A stretch of DNA of 64,000 nucleotides from Exobasidium rhododendri (lineage: Eukaryota > Basidiomycota > Exobasidiomycetes > Exobasidiales > Exobasidiaceae): contig CP110630.1 of NCBI GenBank assembly GCA_026210745.1, positions 1,612,001 through 1,676,000 of the forward strand, written 5' to 3'. This document shows, in pieces, positions 4,281-29,793 of this stretch. The notes beneath the pieces were generated by a model. It had not been told where the DNA came from and did not search any database. It was given only the letters and a program-made list of their open reading frames with translations. The position numbers and the translations under genes were made by a program. How positions within the stretch are numbered: position 1 is the stretch's first letter; each line of letters begins with the position of its first letter.

Positions 4281-7200
4281 TCACTTTTCTTCTTCCGTGT
4301 CGGGCTCCCTTTCACCACCGTAAGTGAGCCATTTGGAAAGACGAACTCTACGCCTCTCCTCTTGCGCCTTGATTTCGTTTCTGGTCTTCTTCTTCTTCTT
4401 TCCTTTGGCAGCTTTCAGTTTACTCATGTCGTGATCCTCCTCTTCTCCTGAGCCGTAGGGCGTGTCGGCTGGTGTACCGGCTGCACTGCTCATGGGTGTC
4501 CTGCTCAATGGAGTGCCTGCTCTACTGTTCACTTTGCTGTTCAAGCGACTGGCAGCCTTGCTACTAGCCAAGGCAGGTGTTCCAGGGCCTCCTGGCGTGC
4601 TAGCGCCACCTGGACTACTGACACCACCTGGCGTACTGGCACCGTCGTCTTCTTCTCCTCCAAAGTGCTCCACAGCCAAGGCAGTCTTTGTCTTGGAGAC
4701 AAGTTTACCTCCTTCGACCGTCCAGATCTCTGTGCAAAGTGCTTCTACGAACTGCATATTGTGAGTGATGATGACGACCGCTCCCGACCAGTTTCGAATA
4801 GCAGTGGCCAACATGGCAACCGAATCACGATCCAAGAAATTCGTAGGCTCGTCTAGCACAAGAATCTGAGGACTGTTCCAGAGTGCAGCTGCCAAGACAA
4901 CCTTGACCTTCTGACCTCCACTCAAGCCGCTCATCTCGTGATGCTCGGCAATCTCTCCATTCAAGCCAATGTCCATCAAGTGTTTTCGGATGGCTTTTGC
5001 AGACAGCTCTTTGCTACCTGCTCCTTCTCTAGAACTTTCAAAGTCATCAAACTTCTGAACAAGTTTGCTGAACCCTAGTTCCATCAATCGATCACGGGGG
5101 ATCCACGTGTTGTGACGGTGCTCCATGCCGACCCACTTGATCTCGTATTGATAACTCTTCTTCAACTTCTGTCGACCTACGATGTACTCGATCTTTCGTC
5201 GTTCACCGGTCGAAGAAGTGATGGGCTGCTCCATCTGATCTTGCTCTTCTTGTGACACCTTTCGCGTGGCCATCTCGGAGATCTCTCGATCATGACCGTC
5301 TTGGAATCGCCAGGTAATGTACTGAACGGCCGTCTTCTCCAGGTGCTGCTCAATGTGGTGGAAGGCGTGTTGATGGAGAGTCGAGATACGCAAATTAGGA
5401 TGTCTTTCCACTTTACCAGACTGCGGAATCATTTCCTGCGTCAGACACTTGATCAGGGTGCTCTTTCCCGCTCCATTGGGACCCAAGACACCGATTCGAC
5501 TGGACAAACTGACGGCGACACTGGCATTTGAAAGACTGGGCTTGCTTGCACCAGGGTAGGTAAAGGTGATGTCACTAGCTTTGAGAATCGTTCGTGTTTG
5601 AGATCGGATTCCCATCAACGAACCAGGAGGTGGGAAACTGAACGCGGCACTCGAGGTGGAAAGGCTGTAGTACGACTTTGCCTCTGGTTTCTTCTCCACG
5701 AACTTACTCAGGTTACCAGGATAGTACTTGATCTTCTTGTTCTCGTAGTGCATAATGTCCGTGCAGACGTTGTCCAAGAAGCCGGAATCGTGACTGACGG
5801 TGAGGACAGTGATGTTGGGATTCGAAGTGAGGAAATTTTCCAACCAAGCAACGGAGGCCACATCCAAGTGATTGGTAGGTTCATCGAGCAGGTAAACATC
5901 TGCCCCAATCAACATGGCTCTTGCCAACGCCAATTTCATCTTCCAACCACCTGACAAGGAAGAGACAGGCGCTAATCTTCTTTCTTCATCAAATCCGACT
6001 TCTTGCAAGGCGGCATGAACCTCTTCGATTGATTTGCCCAACGCCTTTATTTCAGGGGTCTGATGGATGAAATCGACAATCTTCATGTCGGCACCTTCAC
6101 CCTGATTATGTTCGACCATGATTGTTCGAAGTCCTTCTGCTTCTGTCGGATAATTTTCCACCTTTCCATCACGCATAGCTTTTAGTAGGGTGGACTTTCC
6201 ACTTCCATTAGCGGCAACAACACCGTATCGGTGTCCTCGATGCAGACGCAAAGAGGTATGGTTAAGAAGCAAGAGTCCACCGTAGGCGAGAGAGAATTGA
6301 ATCTTACAAAGACACTCTCCTGAGATTTCGCCGTCATCTTCTTCTGGAGCACCAAATCGAACTTGATCCAACTTGACATACTCTTCTCGGATCATGTCCG
6401 TCGTTGACTTTGCTGCTTCGTCGCTCTTTGTCAAACGTCTCATGTAGGGAAGGACATAAACGTCGTCCCACGCACTGGCTTGCACAACTCTTTTGTCTGC
6501 AAGACGAACGACCAGGCTCGCAACCCATTCGACACCCTTTTGATCCCAAGCATCTTTGGAGACGTCGTGATCAGCTCGCGTAGCAAGAGCTTTGTTGATT
6601 CTTGAGATAGCGTCTGTTCTGGCACTTTGAAAGATCTTCTTGGGGTCTTCGTCATCCTTGGCATCACCGACAGCTTTAGTAGCGATTTGCAAAGTTTCAA
6701 GAGCAATTTGAGCATGTTCTCGAACCTCTGGGAACGCAGCTCCTGTTGCAATACGTTCCACACCAGGTGTAAGGGCAGGCAAGAATTTGACAGCTTCATG
6801 CGGATCGCGCACGAGCTTGGTAAGATTCTCTACAATAATGGAGGTAGATCGTTGCACTGTCGAATTTCGCTCATTGAGTGCACGAACCAAGAGGGGGACC
6901 ATGACGGCAAGAGCAGGTCCAGTGACATCGGCAACAAAGGTGGTGGAGGACAAGGCCTTGATGCACTCTGCTACAGTGTCAGGTGCTCTCATGGCGGCAA
7001 CCAAAGAACCCAAATGAGGTCGAATGTCGTTGTTGTCGATCACTCCACATACCTTGGTCGTTGTCTTGACAGCTTGTTTGGCGACCTAAGGAGGAGTTTA
7101 AGGCAAGCAGGAGAGAAGCACAAGGCAAGAAGAAAAGGTGTCAGAATGAGCATTCAATCTATCGATCTGGGCCAAACGCCGTCTCTCACCTCTGCTTTGG

Positions 7201-7777
7201 TGTCAGACATTCTGTTCTTGAGGTGAGGGATCAAATCGACCAGCTGCTCTCCAATCTGTTCGCTGGCTGAGTCGCTCAACCTTCCAATGATTTTGAGGGC
7301 GCCCACCTTGGACTGCCATTTCGTTGCGCTGTTCTCCAACACTTCGTAAAGAAGAGCGAGAACTTCTGGCACAGCCTCTGATGGAGGCAGAACCATGAGA
7401 GCACTGACTGCGCCATCTGCTGCATCTTTGACGTTGTCAACCTTGTCGGCGTACAAGTCAAGAAGAAGAGGTAGAGTAGGTAGCAGCCATGGCTCGGCAC
7501 CAAGCGGGCTAGGAGCGTTCTTGCCTCCTACCTTTGAGAAGATGGCGGACAGGCCAATCGAGCCTGCTTGTCTCTCAAAGGGCGTCTTTTTGTTCTTGCA
7601 AGCCTTGATCAAGCTGTCCAGGATACCTTCTTGTTGTATTGATCGCAGACCATGAGCATTGATGTGAGCGGCAAGTGCATCAGCTGCGATGTGACACTCG
7701 GCAGTTGAAGTTGCCTTGTAAAGCCCAGACAGCAATGTTTCTGCTGAGTGACCATTCGTAGTCCCATCAGAAGCCAT
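4281..7777 (-). CDS. eEF3-family ABC-F ATPase (eEF3 or New1/Elf1 type)
   Basis: Ribosome-associated ABC-F ATPase. eEF3 drives E-site tRNA release during elongation; New1/Elf1 paralogues act in termination/recycling or mRNA export. Two exons: 7777-7190 and 7085-4281 (intron 7189-7086, GTGAGA...TAG, phase 0), giving 1130 residues. Order: N-terminal HEAT repeats, a four-helix-like segment, ABC1 with Walker A GSGKST and signature LSGGWKMKLA, ABC2 with Walker A GPNGAGKST and signature LSGGQKVKVV, and a chromodomain-like insertion in ABC2 (GRQKLKKSYQYEIKWVGMEH). Walker B LLDEPTNHLD and VLDEPTNFLD are intact. Between ABC2 and the lysine-rich tail (GKKKKKTRNEIKAQEERRR) is a TPGG/SPGG-type repeat linker. 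The chromodomain sequence looks closer to New1/Elf1 than to canonical eEF3, but I cannot settle the subfamily. The start at 7777 precedes MASDGTTNG. Confidence 0.9.
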
Positions 7778-8770
7778 CGTTAAGGAACGGCTTTCAGAGA
7801 GTAGGAAGGGGAATGGGAGGAACGGGAGACTGGGTGGTGAGGATGGAAAGGAGAGAGGTCCAATGAAATTTGCTTTAATTCTCCCCCTGCTGCCTTTCAA
7901 AATTCTCAATTGGGTACCAACGAAATCAAAAATTTTAACTCCCCTCGACACACAATTTTTTTTTTCCCTCAAAACTTCGTCGAAGGAACGCGCTGAGAGC
8001 ACCACGTGTTCCAACGCACTAGCATTCCCGTGTACCGGTACCGACGGAGACATTTGTGCCTTGCAGAATGAGCATACAAAGGAGAAGTATGCCAAGATGG
8101 CCAATCGCATCTGCTGCATTGTGGGTAAACGGTCACCTGCTTCGTCATTGAAGATAACCTAATCTGGAATTCGGTAATTGAGAAGCATCTTCATGATAGA
8201 CGGACTCGAATGCGAGGGAAAGGCCAGCTCTTGGGTCTGCCCTTTGTTCCTGCGGCGCTTCACGAGCAAGGCTAGCTGTCCAGTAGGCCGTCTAGGGTCG
8301 CTTGGCAATTTGTGCGACACCTCTTGCCTTTGCATCTTCCGTTCTGCACTTGAACCTTTGGTAAGGCAGGGATCGTTCGCCTCGGCAAACATCAGCGCCT
8401 AGCGAACGAGACCTGTACTGTCACACGGAAGCGTGACGTGATCGACCATTACACTACTCTCTGAGCCTATCCGCAGCATCCCCAGTATATTCGGCGAAGA
8501 AAGCATACTGCTTAAGTATCCTGAGAATGGCCTTCGTAGGAAGCTGCTCATCCGTCAGTCTTGCTTTCCGCCCTCGCTGCTCCACGCCTCCATATGTATT
8601 GCTTGCCGTACGCTATTTGTATTCTTCGACCTGGAAGGGGGAGGGCGCTTGGGCCCCTCAAATACTATTCGGCGCTGAACATAATCGTAGCGAAGAAAGG
8701 GAAGATAGGAACTTACCAGTAACGCGGAATACTATTTCTTTGTCCCTCCAACGCATCAACTTCATCTTCC
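7778..8770. other. Intergenic, about 1 kb, divergent promoters
   Basis: Lies between the eEF3-family gene (-) and the F-box-like gene (+). No coding exon could be supported. Several short overlapping frames lack conserved motifs. It must contain both promoters; a CCACGTG-like box at about 8001-8007 and T-rich runs near 7955-7966 are visible. Confidence 0.4.
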
Positions 8771-21293: not shown

Positions 21294-22355
21294 GATTCCG
21301 GACTGTGGAGAAAAGAGAGAATGTGGGATGGTGTAAAGGAAACAAACGAAAGTACAGACTTCTGCGCCCATCTTCACTGGAAAAGTGCCGGAAGAGACGC
21401 TTCGGATGCAAACGTGCCTCGTATCGCTGCCCTCGTCCGTTTGTTTTGATGTGAAAGCTTTCACTCTTCATTCTGTCAAGGTCTGCTTGTGGCCACCCTT
21501 TACGTTGTCCTACACTCCGCGAGCATGATAGCATATGTGTCCTTGTGGAGAGTGCCCATAAGGGGGAACACTTACGTACTCGACACCACGGCCTCCCGTA
21601 CTACGGTAGATTGGCTTTCAAACGAAAGCAACTTCAATTATGCCGTGCACTATGATTTTATGGTTTTCCATAGAGTACATAATTAAGAATACCCGCAAAT
21701 CGAAGCGCGTCTCGATAAACCAGGTCCGTGTGGCTTACCACGCGGGACGGCTAATAGGCACCCGTGATGTCCTGAAAGGGTGTACGACGCCCGATTGCAG
21801 CTCTCCCGGCCCCCTTTTTTGCCCTTTGATGACACAGACATGACTGTATATACCCCCCCGGAATATGTAAGATAGACGCTCTGATCGAATTCCATGAAGT
21901 CTTACTATGAGAGAAGTCATGGTGTCTCAAAATGCGCGTAGTCCAAAATATACCATTAGAAGGCACACACTGGTTCGACACCCTTCCTTGTATCTCCTCT
22001 CTTTGGTATGTGATGTCTCATATGTATAATACTATGTTTTTCTACCATTCATCAAAATCTCAAGCTCATTGAACGATTTTATGATAGCACCGTGGTCGCC
22101 ATCGATACGGCCTCCGGACTGCAGCGCCTTTTTCATGATAGGCCATATTTCACACATAGAGCAGCTCACTCAAAACGGCATGTTCCACACTTATTGATTC
22201 AGACAAATTTACACGACTCTATTTCATTAGAGGCTATGATACATTGGGGGCGGCAGTCATGCTGTAACAGCATGATTCGTTACGTGTGCGGTCGCGCATG
22301 GTACCGGTGCTCTGGACATCCCGGACGAGAGACATGCGCGCGTCGCGGTGGCCAG
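21294..22355. other. Gene-free AT-rich stretch at the left side of the island
   Basis: About 1 kb without a supportable exon, and more AT-rich than the flanking genes. Short frames overlap on both strands without coding character. No terminal inverted repeat or long direct repeat was spotted. The left end of the candidate mobile element probably lies here. Confidence 0.4.
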
Positions 22356-22705
22356 AGTGAAGCCTCTATGGAGATGTCGCGCAGGCTTCACTCTCGTGTT
22401 GGCTGAACATCTCCGTATACCAGCGCGCGTCCCGAGTGAAGCCTGTCGCGCATCTTGGCATAGGCTTCATCTACACGTAGCGCGGCGCGTGGCCTAATTG
22501 TAAAGTGAAGCCTGTCGCGCATCTTGGCATAGGCTTCACAACACCTTCTGGCCTGTGCCTCCGGGTTCTACCAGGCCTGACGAGTGACGGTGAAGCCTGC
22601 ATGAAGATGGGTTCGGGCTTCACCTGGGCGTGCGTAAGTAGACCGGTTCATGTCACGAGGACTTGAAGTGAAGCCTACACGTAAGTTTACTGCAGGCTTC
22701 ACTTC
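22356..22705. repeat. Left array of five imperfect palindromes (TGAAGCCT-N16-17-AGGCTTCA)
   Basis: Left arms at 22358, 22437, 22506, 22591 and 22669; right arms at 22383, 22462, 22531, 22615 and 22694. The distance between arm starts is 25, 25, 25, 24 and 25 bp. Unit 5 has 12-bp arms (GAAGTGAAGCCT and its complement). Units 2 and 3 share an identical 17-bp spacer. In unit 4 the right arm has one mismatch (GGGCTTCA). Units recur every 69-85 bp. The same motif occurs three times at 28018-28179, upstream of two other island genes. Confidence 0.9.
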
Positions 22706-22810
22706 GCAGCCAGGTAGACTGGGACGGCAACGGTACAATGGGCACCGTCTGTCTCTTCACTCGCTCGGCGCCGCCCGGCCTGGCCCAAAGAGCGTTTGTG
22801 TGTGCTGGCT

Positions 22811-22822
22811 GAATATATACTC
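22811..22822 (+). promoter_or_regulatory. TATA-like element of the left island gene
   Basis: GAATATATACTC about 35-45 nt upstream of the ATG at 22855 and about 105 nt after the palindrome array. This makes the array part of the upstream promoter of the gene. Confidence 0.4.
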
Positions 22823-22854
22823 ATGACCACCACCATCTGCTTATCTCGTTAAGC

Positions 22855-24148
22855 ATGTCTGACATTTCTGAGGACCCCCGCAACACTAAACTTTTGTCTG
22901 CCTTTGTAAAGCAGTATTCCCGGGAGCTGGGACAGACGCTGGGTGTGACCATACCCAAGGACGTCAGCAGATCATGTGCCCAGAGTGTGTGCGAAAAAAT
23001 GAATGTGGAAACCATCGACATTAGCTCAGACAGTGACGAAGGCCCCAAAAAAGGAGAAGAAGAAGAGGAAGAAGAGGAGGAAGAGGAGGAAGAGGACGAG
23101 GACGATGAAGAGGACGAGGAGATACAAGTCCTCCTAGCTCGAGTCAAGGAAGCAGAGGAAAGAGTGGCGCTGCGAGCTTCGCAGACAGCGGAGGCAGTCA
23201 CCAGAGCAGAGGCGGAGAAGGCAAGTAAAGAGGCCGTCTGCGTGGAGTCGACCGAGCGACTACGAGTGGCCATGGATGCACTTTCCAGAGCAAAGGCAGA
23301 TGAGAAGGTCTGGCGGGACAGAGCCGCCAGAGCACAAGAGGCAGAAGAACGGCAGGTCCAGGAAGCGAAGAAGGCTGCTGAAGACGCACTCATGGAAAAG
23401 AAGCGAGCAAGAAAAGAAAGAAGAACAGCGCAACAGAAGAAGCGTCGTTCATTGAAGGGCAAGATTACAGTGAAGCTGGGACAGTCGGCTGCTCGAGAAG
23501 ACAACATGTGAGTGATGATGAGCGGCGAGAGTCTCTAAGAGCATGCTGACATGGCGTGTTTCAGCTTTGCCGTCAACAGTCTTCTTCACTTGGCACGAAT
23601 CGCACCCAACGACTGCATGGCAATTCTGCGATACATCTGCAGGACCATGCCCGACTCGTCCAAGATTCTCGGACAAGTGGACTCATCGCAGATTCCCGAC
23701 GAACTGTCGGACCTGAATTATGCCATCACAGCGGCATTTTCCAACATCCAGCAGCAAGACATCCAGCAGCTGGTCCGATGCATGGAGGTAGCAGTACAGT
23801 TCCGTCTCGCTGCTAGACAGAAGCATATCGGTACAGAGACAGCGGAGGAGGCGGCCAACAAGCTCATCAATCGTCGCAATGCCCAGGCTTTCAAGAAGGT
23901 TGGGCTTCGGGTACTTTTCCTTGCCTTTGCCATTTCCCCACGCAGCATGTTCGGCGTCATTCTCCTGCCCTACCTTGGCTTGAACACGAAGACCTTGCAA
24001 GACGTCACACAAGACAAAGTCGTTGCTCTCATCAATCTTATTGTCGCCCGTAGATCGACTACGAGCCAGGAGCGGGCGAACGTACCTCTGCATTACTCGC
24101 GCATCATCGACTACATCGTGGAGAGACTCATACCGTCGCTAGAGTGAG

Positions 24149-24182
<34 letters not shown>

Positions 24183-24913
24183 AATATCTTTATTCCCCTC
24201 TGCACAGGCTTGCTTTCATGTCCATCTTGTCGGCAGGTTACGACAAGCTACCTGCGGTGGTCAAGACGTTGATCGTGCTGAACGGGAGCGATAGCCAGGA
24301 CGAGGGCGTCGCAGATTTTTCTTCCTATGGCCTGAGAATGACAAAGGCAAGCAACGGAGTGGGCGGGCTGCACGTTCACATGCCCTCTCCTAAGCTGGTT
24401 CATGGCTCGTACAAGACACTCGACGACGAGAGCGCTATTCCCGAGATCCTGTCGTTCTTCGACGACAGGGTCCACGTTGATTGGGAGTATCATCTGCAAC
24501 TGAGAAATAAGCACCCGATCACAGCAGCTATCGTGGAAACACTGCAGGCATATGAAGAATTCTGGAGCTTACGCAAGTTTGCAAGCCCGTCACTGGCAGA
24601 CGAATACCCAGGCCAGACTCGATGCCCGGTGGAAGAAATCGACGAATCGGTCTGGGACGAGATCCATCCCACCCTAACTTATTGGGCAACATTCACGAAC
24701 GGAGACGGACAGAACGAGACGTTAGACGGCGACGAAGACGAAGACGCTACTATCAACACCCACTCGGTCGATTTCTTTGGCACGATCACGCCAAAGACAA
24801 TCAAGGAATACCACGCCTCGGACGGAAGCCTTTACAAGCGTCATGTAGAGGTGATAGACAACGTCTGGGATGAGATTGCTTTGGACGAGGAGGCAGAGCA
24901 AAGCGTGGCTTGA
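22855..24913 (+). CDS. Island gene 1: coiled-coil protein of unknown function
   Basis: Not recognised. Three exons, 22855-23507, 23565-24143 and 24208-24913, with introns 23508-23564 and 24144-24207 (both GTGAGT...CAG) and phase kept; 645 residues. Residues about 55-85 form an acidic Glu/Asp run after the SUMO-interaction-like stretch TIDISSDSDEG. A long Arg/Glu/Ala-rich coiled coil (about 90-200) ends in a basic stretch (KKRARKERRTAQQKKRRSLK). The exon 2 and 3 product looks globular and alpha-helical (for example LLHLARIAPNDCMAILRYIC). The tail is acidic. Exon 2 ends at a GA dinucleotide repeat inside the intron. Convergent with the recombinase gene (177 bp between stops) and preceded by five palindromes. 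A nuclear, DNA- or chromatin-associated helper of the element is possible; that is inference. Confidence 0.72.
24151..24180 (+). repeat. (GA)n microsatellite in intron 2 of island gene 1
   Basis: A run of about 15 GA units begins a few bases after the GTGAGT donor and fills nearly half of the 64-nt intron. Confidence 0.8.
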
Positions 24914-24936
24914 CCTTGTTCGTCTCTCCGATGTCC

Positions 24937-25002
24937 TCTCCTCCTCCTCCTCCTCCTCCTCCTCCTCCTCCTCCGCCTCCTCCTCCTCTCCTCCGCCTCC
25001 TC
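24937..25002. repeat. CCT/CTC-rich simple sequence between convergent island genes
   Basis: Near-pure polypyrimidine trinucleotide tract in the 177-bp gap between stop codons. It probably sits in overlapping 3' regions; an AATAAA-like ACAAATAAAATG follows at about 25039. Confidence 0.7.
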
Positions 25003-25089
25003 TGTAAATATAGACTGAATTCATCGCGAATGGTAAAAACAAATAAAATGTATTGAAACGAAATCTACAAGAACGGTAGGAGAAAGGCA

Positions 25090-27941
25090 TCACTTCTGGA
25101 AAGGCCAGTCGATGGTACCATCAGCATTGTGCAGCTGTGTCAAGTACGCTTCCATGTACTTGTCCGCGATTGGCTTTGACGTGCGCCACCGATGCTCTTC
25201 CTCGGCATGGCTCGATCTGAGATGGTCGACCATCATCTCCTCCGTGACCTCGGGCTCTCCTGCCGCTTGAATCTCTTCCGCTACTTGCAAGTCCTCTGCA
25301 CTGAAGCGAAAGCCCGGCAGACTGACTGCGTCCGAGTCGTCGATCTCCTGTCCCGAAAAGACCTTTGCCAAGATGTCCTGATGCTTCACTCGAAGGTGTT
25401 CCTTCACTTGCAAATCGCTGTCATGCTTCTTGACGAAAAGCCCAATCTTCCCGCTGTGAAAACCTTGCCCGATCAGGAACGGATCGCAGAATGGACAAAA
25501 GCCAATATCTACTATGTGCTCTATCAGCTCCTCGTGCACCTCTCGGCCCTTCAGAACACCAAAGTAATAGCGTATGAGGGTCTGATAGACTACCTCTGGA
25601 TCGGTGTCCTTGAAGAGCGGCATGTCTGGCTGCTCCGTGTCGTCGAAATCTTCCAAAGCATCCTCCGCAGCCAGTTCTTTTGCTTTGCCTTTGCCCTTGT
25701 CGTACTTTTGCCGAAGGGACGCCTCGTAGTCTTCGTCCGGTTGAGATCTGCTTCCTTCCTGAACTCCAGCGCGTACAAGTGTTCCAATGCTGACATTAAC
25801 ACCAAGACTGGCTTCGGTGTGCAGGAATGAGTCAGGCACCAAGGTGGTGGGAAAGCTAGTCAACCTGTTCGCGCTGAGATTTCCATATGCAAGGCCTTCC
25901 ATCATGTCTGCGTCATCTACTTCAGGCGACCGGCTTGGCGCTTCCATCATACCTGCGTCATCCACTGCCCTTTCCTTTCCCTTCAGGCTTGGCGGGAGGA
26001 CGACTTGATGTCGGCGATCATGGGAAGCTTGCGCTGCTTCTTTCTCCTCTTGGGCGCTAGCTTGAAGCGGCTTACTGTTGCGCTCCTTTTCCTCCTGTCT
26101 TGCTATCTTCCCTCGCACACATGCCCGACGACCTGCTAATTTCATCACTGCCTTTCTGTGGGCTTCACATCGAATCTTGCGCTTCTCGATCAGCTCTTCG
26201 TCTGTGTCCGGCAACTCCTTGAGGCGATTGTACCAATAACGAGAAGAGTTCATGACATCCCATGGTGTGACTTCTTGCAATTCAATCAGGGCTTGATCAC
26301 ACTGTGCTTTCAGATTCTTATGAATCTTATCTTCATCGCACGCCGCCTGAACCTTTGCTTTGTCCACTGCATACTTGATCACCTTTCTGCCGTTGTTCAA
26401 GCTTGCATCGGGCTTGCCTTTGTCTTTCTCCTTTGACTTTTCCAGATGCATTCGCTTCAGAGTGAGCTTCGCTGCGTGCCCACTCAGTTGCAGAGTCTCG
26501 TATCGACTTCTCGCCAGACGAACGACCCGGGGATCATTCTTGTCGAGTTCCCCAAGTCGCATGCCAATCAAGTCGAGATGCTGTATGTTGCGAGAGTAGT
26601 GATTTTCCAGTGTGTTCTTCCTGGTGTCGTGGACGAGTAAGGTTCGAGCTTGTTCATAACCAAGCATGATACTGGCTTGATCTCCGACGTCGTGGCGCCA
26701 AGCGTGAAGTCCGCCTTGCTCAGACAGGCCAAGATACCGGTTGTACGCACACAGATGTATCAGTAGTGACGAGCTTGGCCGTGGAAGGATTTTCCCGTCT
26801 TCTCTGATGTCCAGTTGCTGGAATGGGTCGTCGCTATCGACGACTAATCTTGAAGCACTAGAAGCAAAAAGGTCGTCCGGATTGAGTATCTGCTTGCCAG
26901 TCCCTTGTTCGAACAAGACACCCCGGTGCATGAATAATGGCAGCAACGTCACGTTCGGATGAAGGGCAATATTCCTGATGGAAAAGTCAGTGCAAGCTGC
27001 AGAAATACACACGCTCTGATGACTCACCATGCCTTGCTAGCTGGACGAAGGACAGCCGTGCGCTCCTTTGCCGCACTCAGGGCCGAATTGAATCCCTTGA
27101 AGATTGTGTATTCCACCGAGACGCCGAACATGGTGCTTGAATGACGATCCACGACCCTGCCGTCCTTGTTGACCTTGAGATCCCGATGAAAAGAAAAAGC
27201 GTTTTCTTTGAGGTAGCGCGAGGACCCACTGCCCATTGTGATTCCGCCCACTCGAACCCCAGTGAGCATGGCGAGCTGCAGAGCACAGATGTCTTGCAAA
27301 ACAAGCGACGGCGAGTTCACTTGCTCTGTCATTGCCACATTGAGGTGGTCCAAGAGAATGACAAATTCTGGCGGCCCAAAGAACTCCCTCTCGCGACATC
27401 TTCGTGGCAAGTCCATCGACTCTGCTATGTGTCCGCAAACTTGCCCAATGCTTCGAGCCACTCCTTCGGTGTACTCGTCGCCCCGTAAGATCCGATCCAA
27501 GAGTGACTTGTTGTGGCGGAAGTGATCTACGACGATGTTGGTCATCATGTTCTTCCAGCGGTGAATGGTGCTGACCGCTGGTCGGGACAGTGCTCCATTC
27601 TGTCCTGGCGTGACTTGGGCTCGGTAAATGAGGTACATTCGGATCCGATCACACAGAGCATTCTGATGCTCTAGTCGGGAGGAGAATGCTGGGATGTCAT
27701 CACCATTATCATCTTGTATGACAAAAGCATGCTCGCAAAAGTACACAAAGCCCGCCTTCATGCTTTCTTCACACTTGATGTTGTACATGTTTGCATCGAC
27801 GTGTTGCTTGCTCCTTTCCCGACTGGCTAGAAGCTCGGTCAGCCATTTGTCTCGCTCGATTGGGTCCTGGTTTGCTGCGATAGACTGGACAATATGCAAC
27901 TTTTCCACATTTACAGGCGGGAGCTCGTCTCGATATACCAT
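25090..27941 (-). CDS. Island gene 2: tyrosine recombinase, DUF3435/Crypton type (Starship-captain-like)
   Basis: Site-specific recombinase thought to cut and join DNA through a tyrosine nucleophile, as in Cryptons and Starship captains. Two exons, 27941-27028 and 26974-25090 (intron GTGAGT...CAG, phase kept), 932 residues. The catalytic set is complete by motif: R230 in MLTGVRVGGI, H395-x-x-R398 in GGLHAWRHDVGDQ, H420 in LLVHDTRKNT, and nucleophile Y431 in LENHYSRN. Residues 1-200 form a helical core-binding-like part. After the catalytic domain comes a charged Lys/Glu linker (about 440-560), then a C-terminal zinc-finger-like CPFC...H-x4-H (about 797-836), an arrangement also known in DUF3435 proteins. 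No frameshift or stop is seen, so it may be active. Its upstream region shares three palindromes with the divergent gene at 28272. HxxR in place of the RxxR or YxxR common in Starship captains may point to a Crypton-like branch. Confidence 0.82.
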
Positions 27942-28013
27942 GTCTGCTTTGAAGTGTGCGAAGGGATTGAAGGAAAGGAACGACGAGACAAGCGCGGTCC
28001 GCAGCTCCCATCC

Positions 28014-28181
28014 AAAGTGAAGCCTGCGCCATTATGTCCCGGAGGCTTCATTTAGGATGTACGACGCGTAGCTGAAGCCTGTATGATGGAGTGCACAGGC
28101 TTCACGCTAGTCAAGCCCCGGGCAGAGCATAGCATACCCATAGATGGTGAAGCCTGTACACTCCATCATACAGGCTTCAGC
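28014..28181. repeat. Right array of three palindromes in a divergent promoter
   Basis: TGAAGCCT/AGGCTTCA pairs at 28018/28043, 28073/28097 and 28148/28172 (arm-start distance 25, 24, 24). The last two units are near-identical to each other in inverted orientation, spacers included, with one mismatch over about 35 bp. The region 28071-28181 could therefore also pair as one large hairpin. It lies between the recombinase ATG (27941, -) and the ATG at 28272 (+). Confidence 0.9.
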
Positions 28182-28271
28182 ATACTCTACTCTCGGGCGC
28201 GACGCGTGGGTAAGGGTACGGTCGCGAAGAAGTGCATGTACACTCTTCTCTTCAACCCCCATACCGTCAAG

Positions 28272-29238
28272 ATGCCGCGACCATCCGCCCGTCGCGATGA
28301 GAGCTTGAGCAGCAGCATGGAATCGGAGGAGGAGGAGGAGGTGACGCAGCCGAAAGCCAAGAGACTCTTTCGCACCCTCTCAGCAAGAAATAGGCTCGCC
28401 GATGCCACAGGTCGTCTCAATGCTCCCTTGCCTCCGAAGAAACCGACCAACGCAAAGCAAGGAAGAAATGAGAAGACATCAGGCAAGAAGAGGCGCATTG
28501 AAGAAGAGGAGGAGGAGGAGGAGGAGGAGGAGGAAGTGGAAGTGGACGAAGAGGCAGGAGAGAAGGACGAGGACGCAGTCGCTGTGAAGCTAGATCTCAG
28601 CACCTCCAAGAGACGTGGTGCTTCGAAGAATTTGCCTAGTGAGTATGTCGTTGATGAGCTTCCGTCTTCTTTAACTAATAGTATCTTTTGCAGTCATCGA
28701 ACGTTTGGCCTACAAGCAAAATCAGCTGACTGCTTCGGCACAGTTTGAATTGATGAGACAAGTGTGCAACAAGCTTGATTATCTTTGTGCAGTGAGTGCG
28801 ACACAAGGAACGTAGGGGAGTAGTCGCTTGCTAATCCAGACTTTCATAGCTTCAACATCAGAGCAATAAGGTAATGTCACTTTCAAGTAGGGCAAGCTGG
28901 TATTTCATGTTGGATAGGATGGTCGTTTGCTTACTCTTGGTAACGTGCTGCAATTCTAGCTCGCATTTCGTAGTCATCCTGACTATGTCAATCTTCGGCC
29001 CTACGACGGCAGCAAGGAAACACCAAATGCTGACCAATTCACTCGCTTGCTCTCGTTGGCCAACATCAACAGTGCTCGAGAGAATGCTACAAGTTCGGCT
29101 CCGGCTCCCGCTCCTCCCCGTGTCGGACGAGGAGACGGCCAAACATCAGGCAAACGAACCAACGAAGACACCACCCCAGGTGCCAACAAACGCAGAGCCG
29201 GTGATGACAGCGCTTCCCCTTCCACTTCGCGAGCATGA
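28272..29238 (+). CDS. Island gene 3: basic/acidic low-complexity protein, unknown
   Basis: Not recognised. Four exons: 28272-28638, 28694-28791, 28850-28870 (21 nt only) and 28960-29238, with GT...AG introns and kept phase; 254 residues. The N terminus is basic and Ser-rich (MPRPSARRDESLSSSMESEE), followed by Lys/Arg stretches (KKRRIEEEE), a Glu run and a further acidic part. The middle (ERLAYKQNQLTASAQFELMR) is helical. The C terminus is Ala/Pro and Ser/Arg-rich, ending SASPSTSRA. A nuclear protein is likely from composition alone. An in-frame ATG at 28236 is an alternative start. Divergent from the recombinase with 330 bp between start codons that hold three palindromes. Confidence 0.62.
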
Positions 29239-29260
29239 CTTTTCGTCTCGATCAGACTGT

Positions 29261-29334
29261 ATTTTAGACATCGTCATCGTCATCATCATCGTCATTGTCA
29301 TCGTCATCGTCATCATCATCATCATACCCCCATC
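29261..29334 (+). repeat. CAT/CGT trinucleotide microsatellite
   Basis: Runs of ATC/GTC triplets between the end of island gene 3 and the GST relict. Simple sequence, non-coding. Confidence 0.8.
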
Positions 29335-29793
29335 ATGTACTTTGTAGTCAAATACACCCAAAGAGAGGTCTGCAAATTCATGGATTGTTCTTCTGTACTC
29401 GTTGGTCACTACGCCAACGGCTTCTGCGTGTGGAAGTCTGGTGCCATCCCACTACGGTAGCAGATAGGATACATATTACATTGTCCTCGATACACTGCCA
29501 AGGCGACCTATGGGGTAGAGGCCAGCAAAGCCGACTTGACTCGATTTGAAGGAGAATCTTACCGACTTTACCAGGTACTAGACGATCAATTGGCTGCTCA
29601 AGCTAAGAAAGGAAGTGCCTGGATTGCCTTAGATCGACCAACGATTGCCGACTATGCATTCTACCCTTGGGTACACATTGCTGGATTTGCGAAGCTAGAC
29701 ATCACCCCATACAAGAATGTAGTCAAGTGGCATGCAGCTCTTGAGGCCGACAAGGATGTGCAAGAAGCAGACTCCAAGCTGCCAAAGTCATAA
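29335..29793 (+). pseudogene. Glutathione S-transferase relict (Ure2-like), in-frame stop
   Basis: One reading frame holds two recognisable GST pieces separated by TAG at 29458-29460. Upstream is the end of the N-terminal domain (VLVGHYANGFCVWKSGAI, like LVDH-NDF-VWESGAI). Downstream is the C-terminal helical domain (TYGVEASKADLTRFEGESYR, RPTIADYAFYPWVHIAGF). The start of the thioredoxin domain is missing, and the part linking the two domains is shortened, so a simple intron does not explain the break. Not related in position to the intact GST at the window start. The nearest ATG is 29335, but expression as a functional enzyme is unlikely. Confidence 0.72.

Follow-up and report, generated by a model that had tools for sequence, protein, structure and literature searches.

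Shared upstream palindromes point to a self-regulated genetic unit around a tyrosine recombinase-like gene in Exobasidium rhododendri

Why should one palindrome stand repeatedly upstream of three adjacent fungal genes, one of which resembles a tyrosine recombinase? We addressed this question in Exobasidium rhododendri, in a window of 64,000 nucleotides (C1:1612001-1676000) from an assembly of 17,647,348 bases (17.65 Mb) in 4 contigs. The first-pass annotation had taken the DNA to come from a probable basidiomycete, which is correct: a public record of E. rhododendri CBS101457, a basidiomycete of the Ustilaginomycotina, matches the recombinase-like protein of the locus, the two being identical over 932 residues. 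The palindromes at the three-gene locus are real and striking, and they point to a self-regulated genetic unit; movement of the unit forms no part of this claim. An Rfam search gave nothing over threshold.

The eight palindromic units all fall in two upstream blocks: five precede the left gene, and the other three occupy the interval that separates the recombinase-like gene from the divergent right gene (Table 1). The pattern TGAAGCCT-N16/17-AGGCTTCA occurs exactly seven times in the window and never in 100 dinucleotide shuffles, and the eighth unit departs from it by a single arm base. The first-pass annotation had reported this palindrome pair before all three genes, five units at the left gene and three common to the recombinase and its divergent neighbour, and the reanalysis bears this out with seven exact units and one variant. 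The arms are fixed across the units, the gap is only ever 16 or 17, and the unit length is 32 or 33. Units 2 and 3 are direct copies of each other; the inverted arms around units 7 and 8 (28071-28105 and 28147-28181) span 35 nt, are 97% complementary and lie 41 nt apart.

Table 1. Positions of the three genes and eight palindromic units in the window
Feature	Coordinates	Strand	Description
Left gene	22855..24913	+	645 aa; exons 22855-23507, 23565-24143, 24208-24913; open frames joined at consensus introns
Recombinase-like gene	25090..27941	-	932 aa; exons 27941-27028, 26974-25090; clean model
Right gene	28272..29238	+	about 247 aa; exons 28272-28638, 28694-28791, 28960-29238; alternative splicing models possible
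Unit 1	22358..22390	+	exact; gap 17; AGATG on dyad
Unit 2	22437..22469	+	exact; gap 17; CATCT (AGATG reversed) on dyad
Unit 3	22506..22538	+	exact; gap 17; identical to unit 2
Unit 4	22591..22622	+	variant by one arm base; gap 16; AGATG at dyad
Unit 5	22669..22701	+	exact; gap 17
Unit 6	28018..28050	+	exact; gap 17
Unit 7	28073..28104	+	exact; gap 16
Unit 8	28148..28179	+	exact; gap 16; inverted copy of unit 7

Searching the whole assembly for the exact pattern returned the same seven units and none besides, with 0 matches for a reversed-pattern control. When 7-base arms and any gap of 12-30 were allowed, 10 places were found in the genome (control 0), eight of them the units of this locus and the remaining two lone sites with differing gaps (C2:448222 and C3:4384200). 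With the gap set to 17 and up to 3 mismatches, the genome held 94 sites versus 63 for the reversed control; among the matches listed, none had 1 mismatch and 7 had 2, these being scattered. When recurrent 8-base arms of any sequence were sought, 20 base-shuffled windows had none; in 42 stretches of the same genome (265,835 bases, partly overlapping, window included) the sole other case was a pair of hits at one transposon locus (overlap of L022 and L026). Single palindromes numbered 53 in the real window versus 12-31 in base-shuffled windows. No palindrome array occurs at the three DUF3435 loci of the genome (L010-L012) or at loci L040-L043, which hold relatives of the left gene, and in the viral contigs scanned for the palindrome the matches listed amount to one site each. 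The annotation had named palindromes dispersed genome-wide without the recombinase as a refutation; no array was found elsewhere in the genome, so this refutation does not apply.

The 932-residue protein has the catalytic residues of tyrosine recombinases in order and with the usual spacing, namely R230 (within TGVRVGG), H395xxR398 (HAWR), H420 (LLVH) and Y431 (NHYSR), and by this catalytic-residue criterion it is a predicted member of the tyrosine recombinase superfamily. A C-terminal CC-HH motif was recognized by eye (C798, C801, H831, H836). Because no family library matches the protein (no Pfam match, DUF3435 or PF11917 included, at E 1 or less, and none in PHROGs, NCBIfam or PDB), DNA binding is deduced from these motifs. 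The protein is single-copy in the genome. Searches of viral and of prokaryote contigs gave no relative. The sole weak relative in the protein search was Termitomyces C0993_002814 (P0002; E 0.72), which aligns pairwise with the 932-residue protein at E 1e-9 and, used as a query in the E. rhododendri genome, finds only the recombinase-like gene (E 1.6e-5). The two proteins are of similar length and both carry a C-terminal CC-HH motif; their HxxR-H-Y boxes align with 36% identity over 85 columns. The first catalytic arginine box was not seen in P0002, and the rest hardly aligns.

Could the signature have arisen by chance, in a protein that is no recombinase, within an orphan gene cluster furnished with operators? 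The silence of Pfam, NCBIfam, PHROGs and PDB is consistent with this, as are the captain models described below, which do not lift the protein above shuffles and in one case rank it 213th. Moreover, the loose form of the signature was written after the 932-residue protein had been seen, and 88 of 20,000 shuffles meet it. Against chance, the same loose signature is present in both intact DUF3435 genes of the genome and absent from all 43 further ORFs examined with at least 300 aa (two of these being the exons of this gene taken singly), and the part conserved with P0002 is exactly the HxxR-H-Y box. We judge a fortuitous signature to be the least probable of the explanations considered.

The gene had been annotated as a DUF3435/Crypton-type recombinase, of which the tyrosine-recombinase signature stands and the DUF3435 assignment is not supported. 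DUF3435 membership found no support in the Pfam scan, in a genome search with PF11917, whose matches fall at three other loci only, or in models built from Starship captains. In a profile alignment to two captains the catalytic box lies in register, weakly, with a probability of 3.2%. Using the two-captain model, the 932-residue protein was neither in the best eight of 1,187 sequences nor above a shuffled sequence. After P0002 was added to that model, the protein and its exon took the lead, as expected from their kinship to P0002; with a three-captain model, P0002 came second, behind a shuffle, and the 932-residue protein 213th of the matches listed for 1,002 sequences. Since no library matches the protein and the captain models are silent, we call it recombinase-like and not a captain.

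The left gene, previously noted for its 645 residues, is upheld as a three-exon model. Its protein has an acidic, coiled N-terminal part, and its C-terminal domain is that of a dispersed family. No Pfam family exceeded its cut-off, and a protein database search at E 10 (7,814 candidates) gave no relative. In the genome, relatives were found at C1:1994174, C1:4484984, C1:1764032 and C3:1357948 (weak, E 0.0018), and a second query added C1:593200, amounting to four or five other loci. Four of these were read with 10 kb each and the fifth with 3.3 kb, and none of the loci read has a palindrome array. The signature pattern used to scan the neighbourhoods, which is met by the 932-residue protein (P0001), by P0002 and by both intact DUF3435 genes, matched only the recombinase-like gene, L010 and L011, and was found at none of the left-family loci (L040-L043, L052, L175, L176). 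Because its relatives elsewhere have neither palindromes nor a recombinase signature nearby, there is no fixed link between the left gene and the recombinase-like gene, and the left, recombinase-like and right genes form no obligate set. Co-occurrence of recombinase, left gene and palindromes elsewhere, which the first-pass annotation had suggested looking for, is not seen; the recombinase is single-copy and the left-gene relatives lack the palindromes. The weak family member at C3:1357948 lies between two C48 (Ulp1-type) protease genes (L043:2899-3786, 4583-5956, 7655-8530); a C48 protease domain is carried by some oomycete Cryptons (PMC3212892). DUF3435 loci lie about 49 kb from the member at C3:1357948 and about 64 kb from that at C1:593200.

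For the right gene, no relative over E 0.04 was found in the genome. Pfam gave no domain above cut-off for any of the three locus proteins. The frames of all three genes are open and can be spliced, and in codon use the genes resemble 14 flanking ORFs, the GC3 of the left gene (0.619) being just above the highest flank value (0.606).

As the best explanation, held with moderate confidence, we propose that the eight dyads are operators of one dedicated DNA-binding protein controlling all three genes. Standing before the divergent recombinase-like gene and the two genes for charged proteins, they would place these under one control, with a dimer probably reading the two arms of each unit. Sites before all three genes and the absence of an array elsewhere argue for a dedicated regulator, most simply one encoded inside the unit itself, and it may alternatively be encoded elsewhere in the genome. 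The recombinase-like protein is plausibly this regulator and would be the first candidate, since it combines a recombinase core with a C-terminal CC-HH motif; the left protein is a weaker candidate because its relatives lack such sites. On this view, the locus would be a small resident tyrosine-recombinase element (about 6.9 kb; 22.35-29.24 kb) that regulates itself.

The same operators could instead serve a regulator of the host, the trio being a co-regulated, immobile cluster that includes a former recombinase kept by the host. The single copy, the intact frames, the flank-like codon use, the lack of detected ends or of a second copy and the membership of the left gene in a dispersed family are all compatible with this. 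However, the catalytic signature of the 932-residue protein is complete, unlike that of domesticated animal DUF3504 genes, which have lost the catalytic site (PMC3212892), and sites at other loci would be expected if a general host regulator read them, whereas the genome has no other array. We consider a host cluster unlikely.

The spacers between the arms are not random, and their conserved centre supports the operator reading and also bears on a different use of the units. The word AGATG, on either strand, falls exactly on the dyad in 4 of the 8 units, which represent only three independent cases because units 2 and 3 are identical. Six of the 8 spacers were compared, without those of the duplicate unit at 22506 and of the nearly identical inverted unit at 28148. 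Of all seven-column windows the central one scored highest, at 5.0, whereas the best score of shuffles over all windows averaged 4.33, was 4.83 at the highest and reached 5.0 in 0 of 200; for the central window, 0 of 400 shuffles were as alike. This test is partly post hoc, since the word had been spotted before testing. AGATG or its complement is also found away from the dyads, at three places in 22304-22855 and at one in the right block, and the left and right blocks do not have one common central sequence.

The site geometry of Flp, Cre and Xer provides the comparison for reading the units as core sites on which the recombinase acts, as the 32/33 bases would fit two 13-base arms with a 6- or 7-base crossover between them. 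Length and conserved centre are in line with this, as are the inverted arrangement of units 7 and 8 and the direct one of units 2 and 3. Yet the supposed arms vary in their inner five bases, a locus with eight such sites would be unstable, and all eight lie in promoters; given also that the two blocks share no single centre, the 13+6/7+13 reading is weakly supported, and we consider core sites highly unlikely. A bolder conjecture, to which we assign very little probability, is a new family of small basidiomycete elements whose recombinase would read its own core-like sites in every promoter, so that control and recombination become a single event, an example being a possible flip of the 41 bp that separate inverted units 7 and 8, which would switch the divergent genes.

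Next to the palindromes, on the left of the unit, lies a degenerate copy (21736-22303) of a transposon that is dispersed in the genome. This transposon (copies L024-L035) is of the Tc5/pogo-like DNA type, has TACCATGCGC at its ends and is flanked by TA; most of the copies read measure about 1.43 kb, L026 and L032 measure 2.9 kb, and a long copy has a Tc5-type DNA-binding domain. Its pieces account for 40 of 51 DNA-search matches, several per copy; the DNA search of the genome showed no second copy of the genes, a result that is a lower bound. The right flank (29398-29790) is a glutathione S-transferase (GST) pseudogene with a stop inside, with paralogues at C2:5042279 and C1:20596. Insertion of the unit into a GST gene was rejected, as the first 62 residues of the paralogue have no significant match in the window and the 10-mer ACTACGGTAG, present at 21600 and 29451, is near chance, about 0.8 being expected arithmetically in such stretches. 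The transposon remnant and the GST pseudogene bound the unit without defining its ends.

Short terminal direct repeats, often of 6 bp, are one criterion for a fungal CryptonF. The likely boundary stretches 22304-22357 and 29236-29400 have no common word over 6 bp and two of 6 bp (GACATC and AGACAT), so that ends are not established and mobility of the three-gene unit is unproven. A Crypton- or Starship-like element still moving, with ends near 22.3 and 29.3 kb, would account for the recombinase signature, for the single weak relative, as expected of a patchily distributed element, and for flanks made of a transposon remnant and a pseudogene. Against it stand the single copy, the boundary stretches just described, the missing DUF3435 and GCR1_C domains and the host-like codon use, and we regard current movement as distinctly doubtful. 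Sister Exobasidium genomes exist (PMC13010171), among them E. cylindrosporum YG638, E. phylloplanum CCF 7021, E. vaccinii MPITM and E. maculosum A7-4; the protein database searches gave no Exobasidium relative besides the species' own record, the presence of the sister genomes in that database not being established.

How does the locus compare with known systems? The first-pass annotation spoke of Starships as known from Pezizomycotina; a confinement to that group is an outdated premise, eight being reported in the basidiomycete Tremella fuciformis (PMC13066641). Captains are DUF3435 (PF11917) proteins of elements of 15-700 kb (PMC12134995); they have a tyrosine-recombinase signature, like the 932-residue protein. 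Unlike Starships, the unit is about 7 kb, has no DUF3435 match and shows no flanking direct repeats that we could find. The three DUF3435 loci of the genome (C1:657689, C3:1407070 and C2:1647709), of which two have long open frames and the third contains three stops, are possible Starship captains; the two intact genes have, by eye, a C-terminal CC-HH motif as does the 932-residue protein, and, unlike the three-gene locus, all three loci are without promoter palindromes. CryptonF elements of fungi are small, carry a tyrosine recombinase and lack inverted terminal repeats (PMC3212892), and the locus resembles them in size, in its tyrosine-recombinase-like gene and in the absence of such repeats. 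It differs in having two extra genes, no established pair of terminal direct repeats and no GCR1_C, for which the 932-residue protein gave no match at E 1 or less (a genome search for this domain was silent everywhere, controls included, and is uninformative). Yeast 2-micron type systems combine the Flp tyrosine recombinase with companion proteins, are self-regulated and use sites of about 34 bases. The locus here may resemble them in these respects; it is chromosomal, with no plasmid functions shown.

Tyrosine recombinases drive Cryptons and Starships, and seemingly little has been written on how these elements control them; among open PMC papers we found none linking Starship captains with palindromes and none linking Exobasidium with a tyrosine recombinase. 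A recombinase-like gene missed by Pfam and lying beside private operators offers a test case for such self-regulation, and it suggests that some fungal recombinases escape surveys based on profiles.
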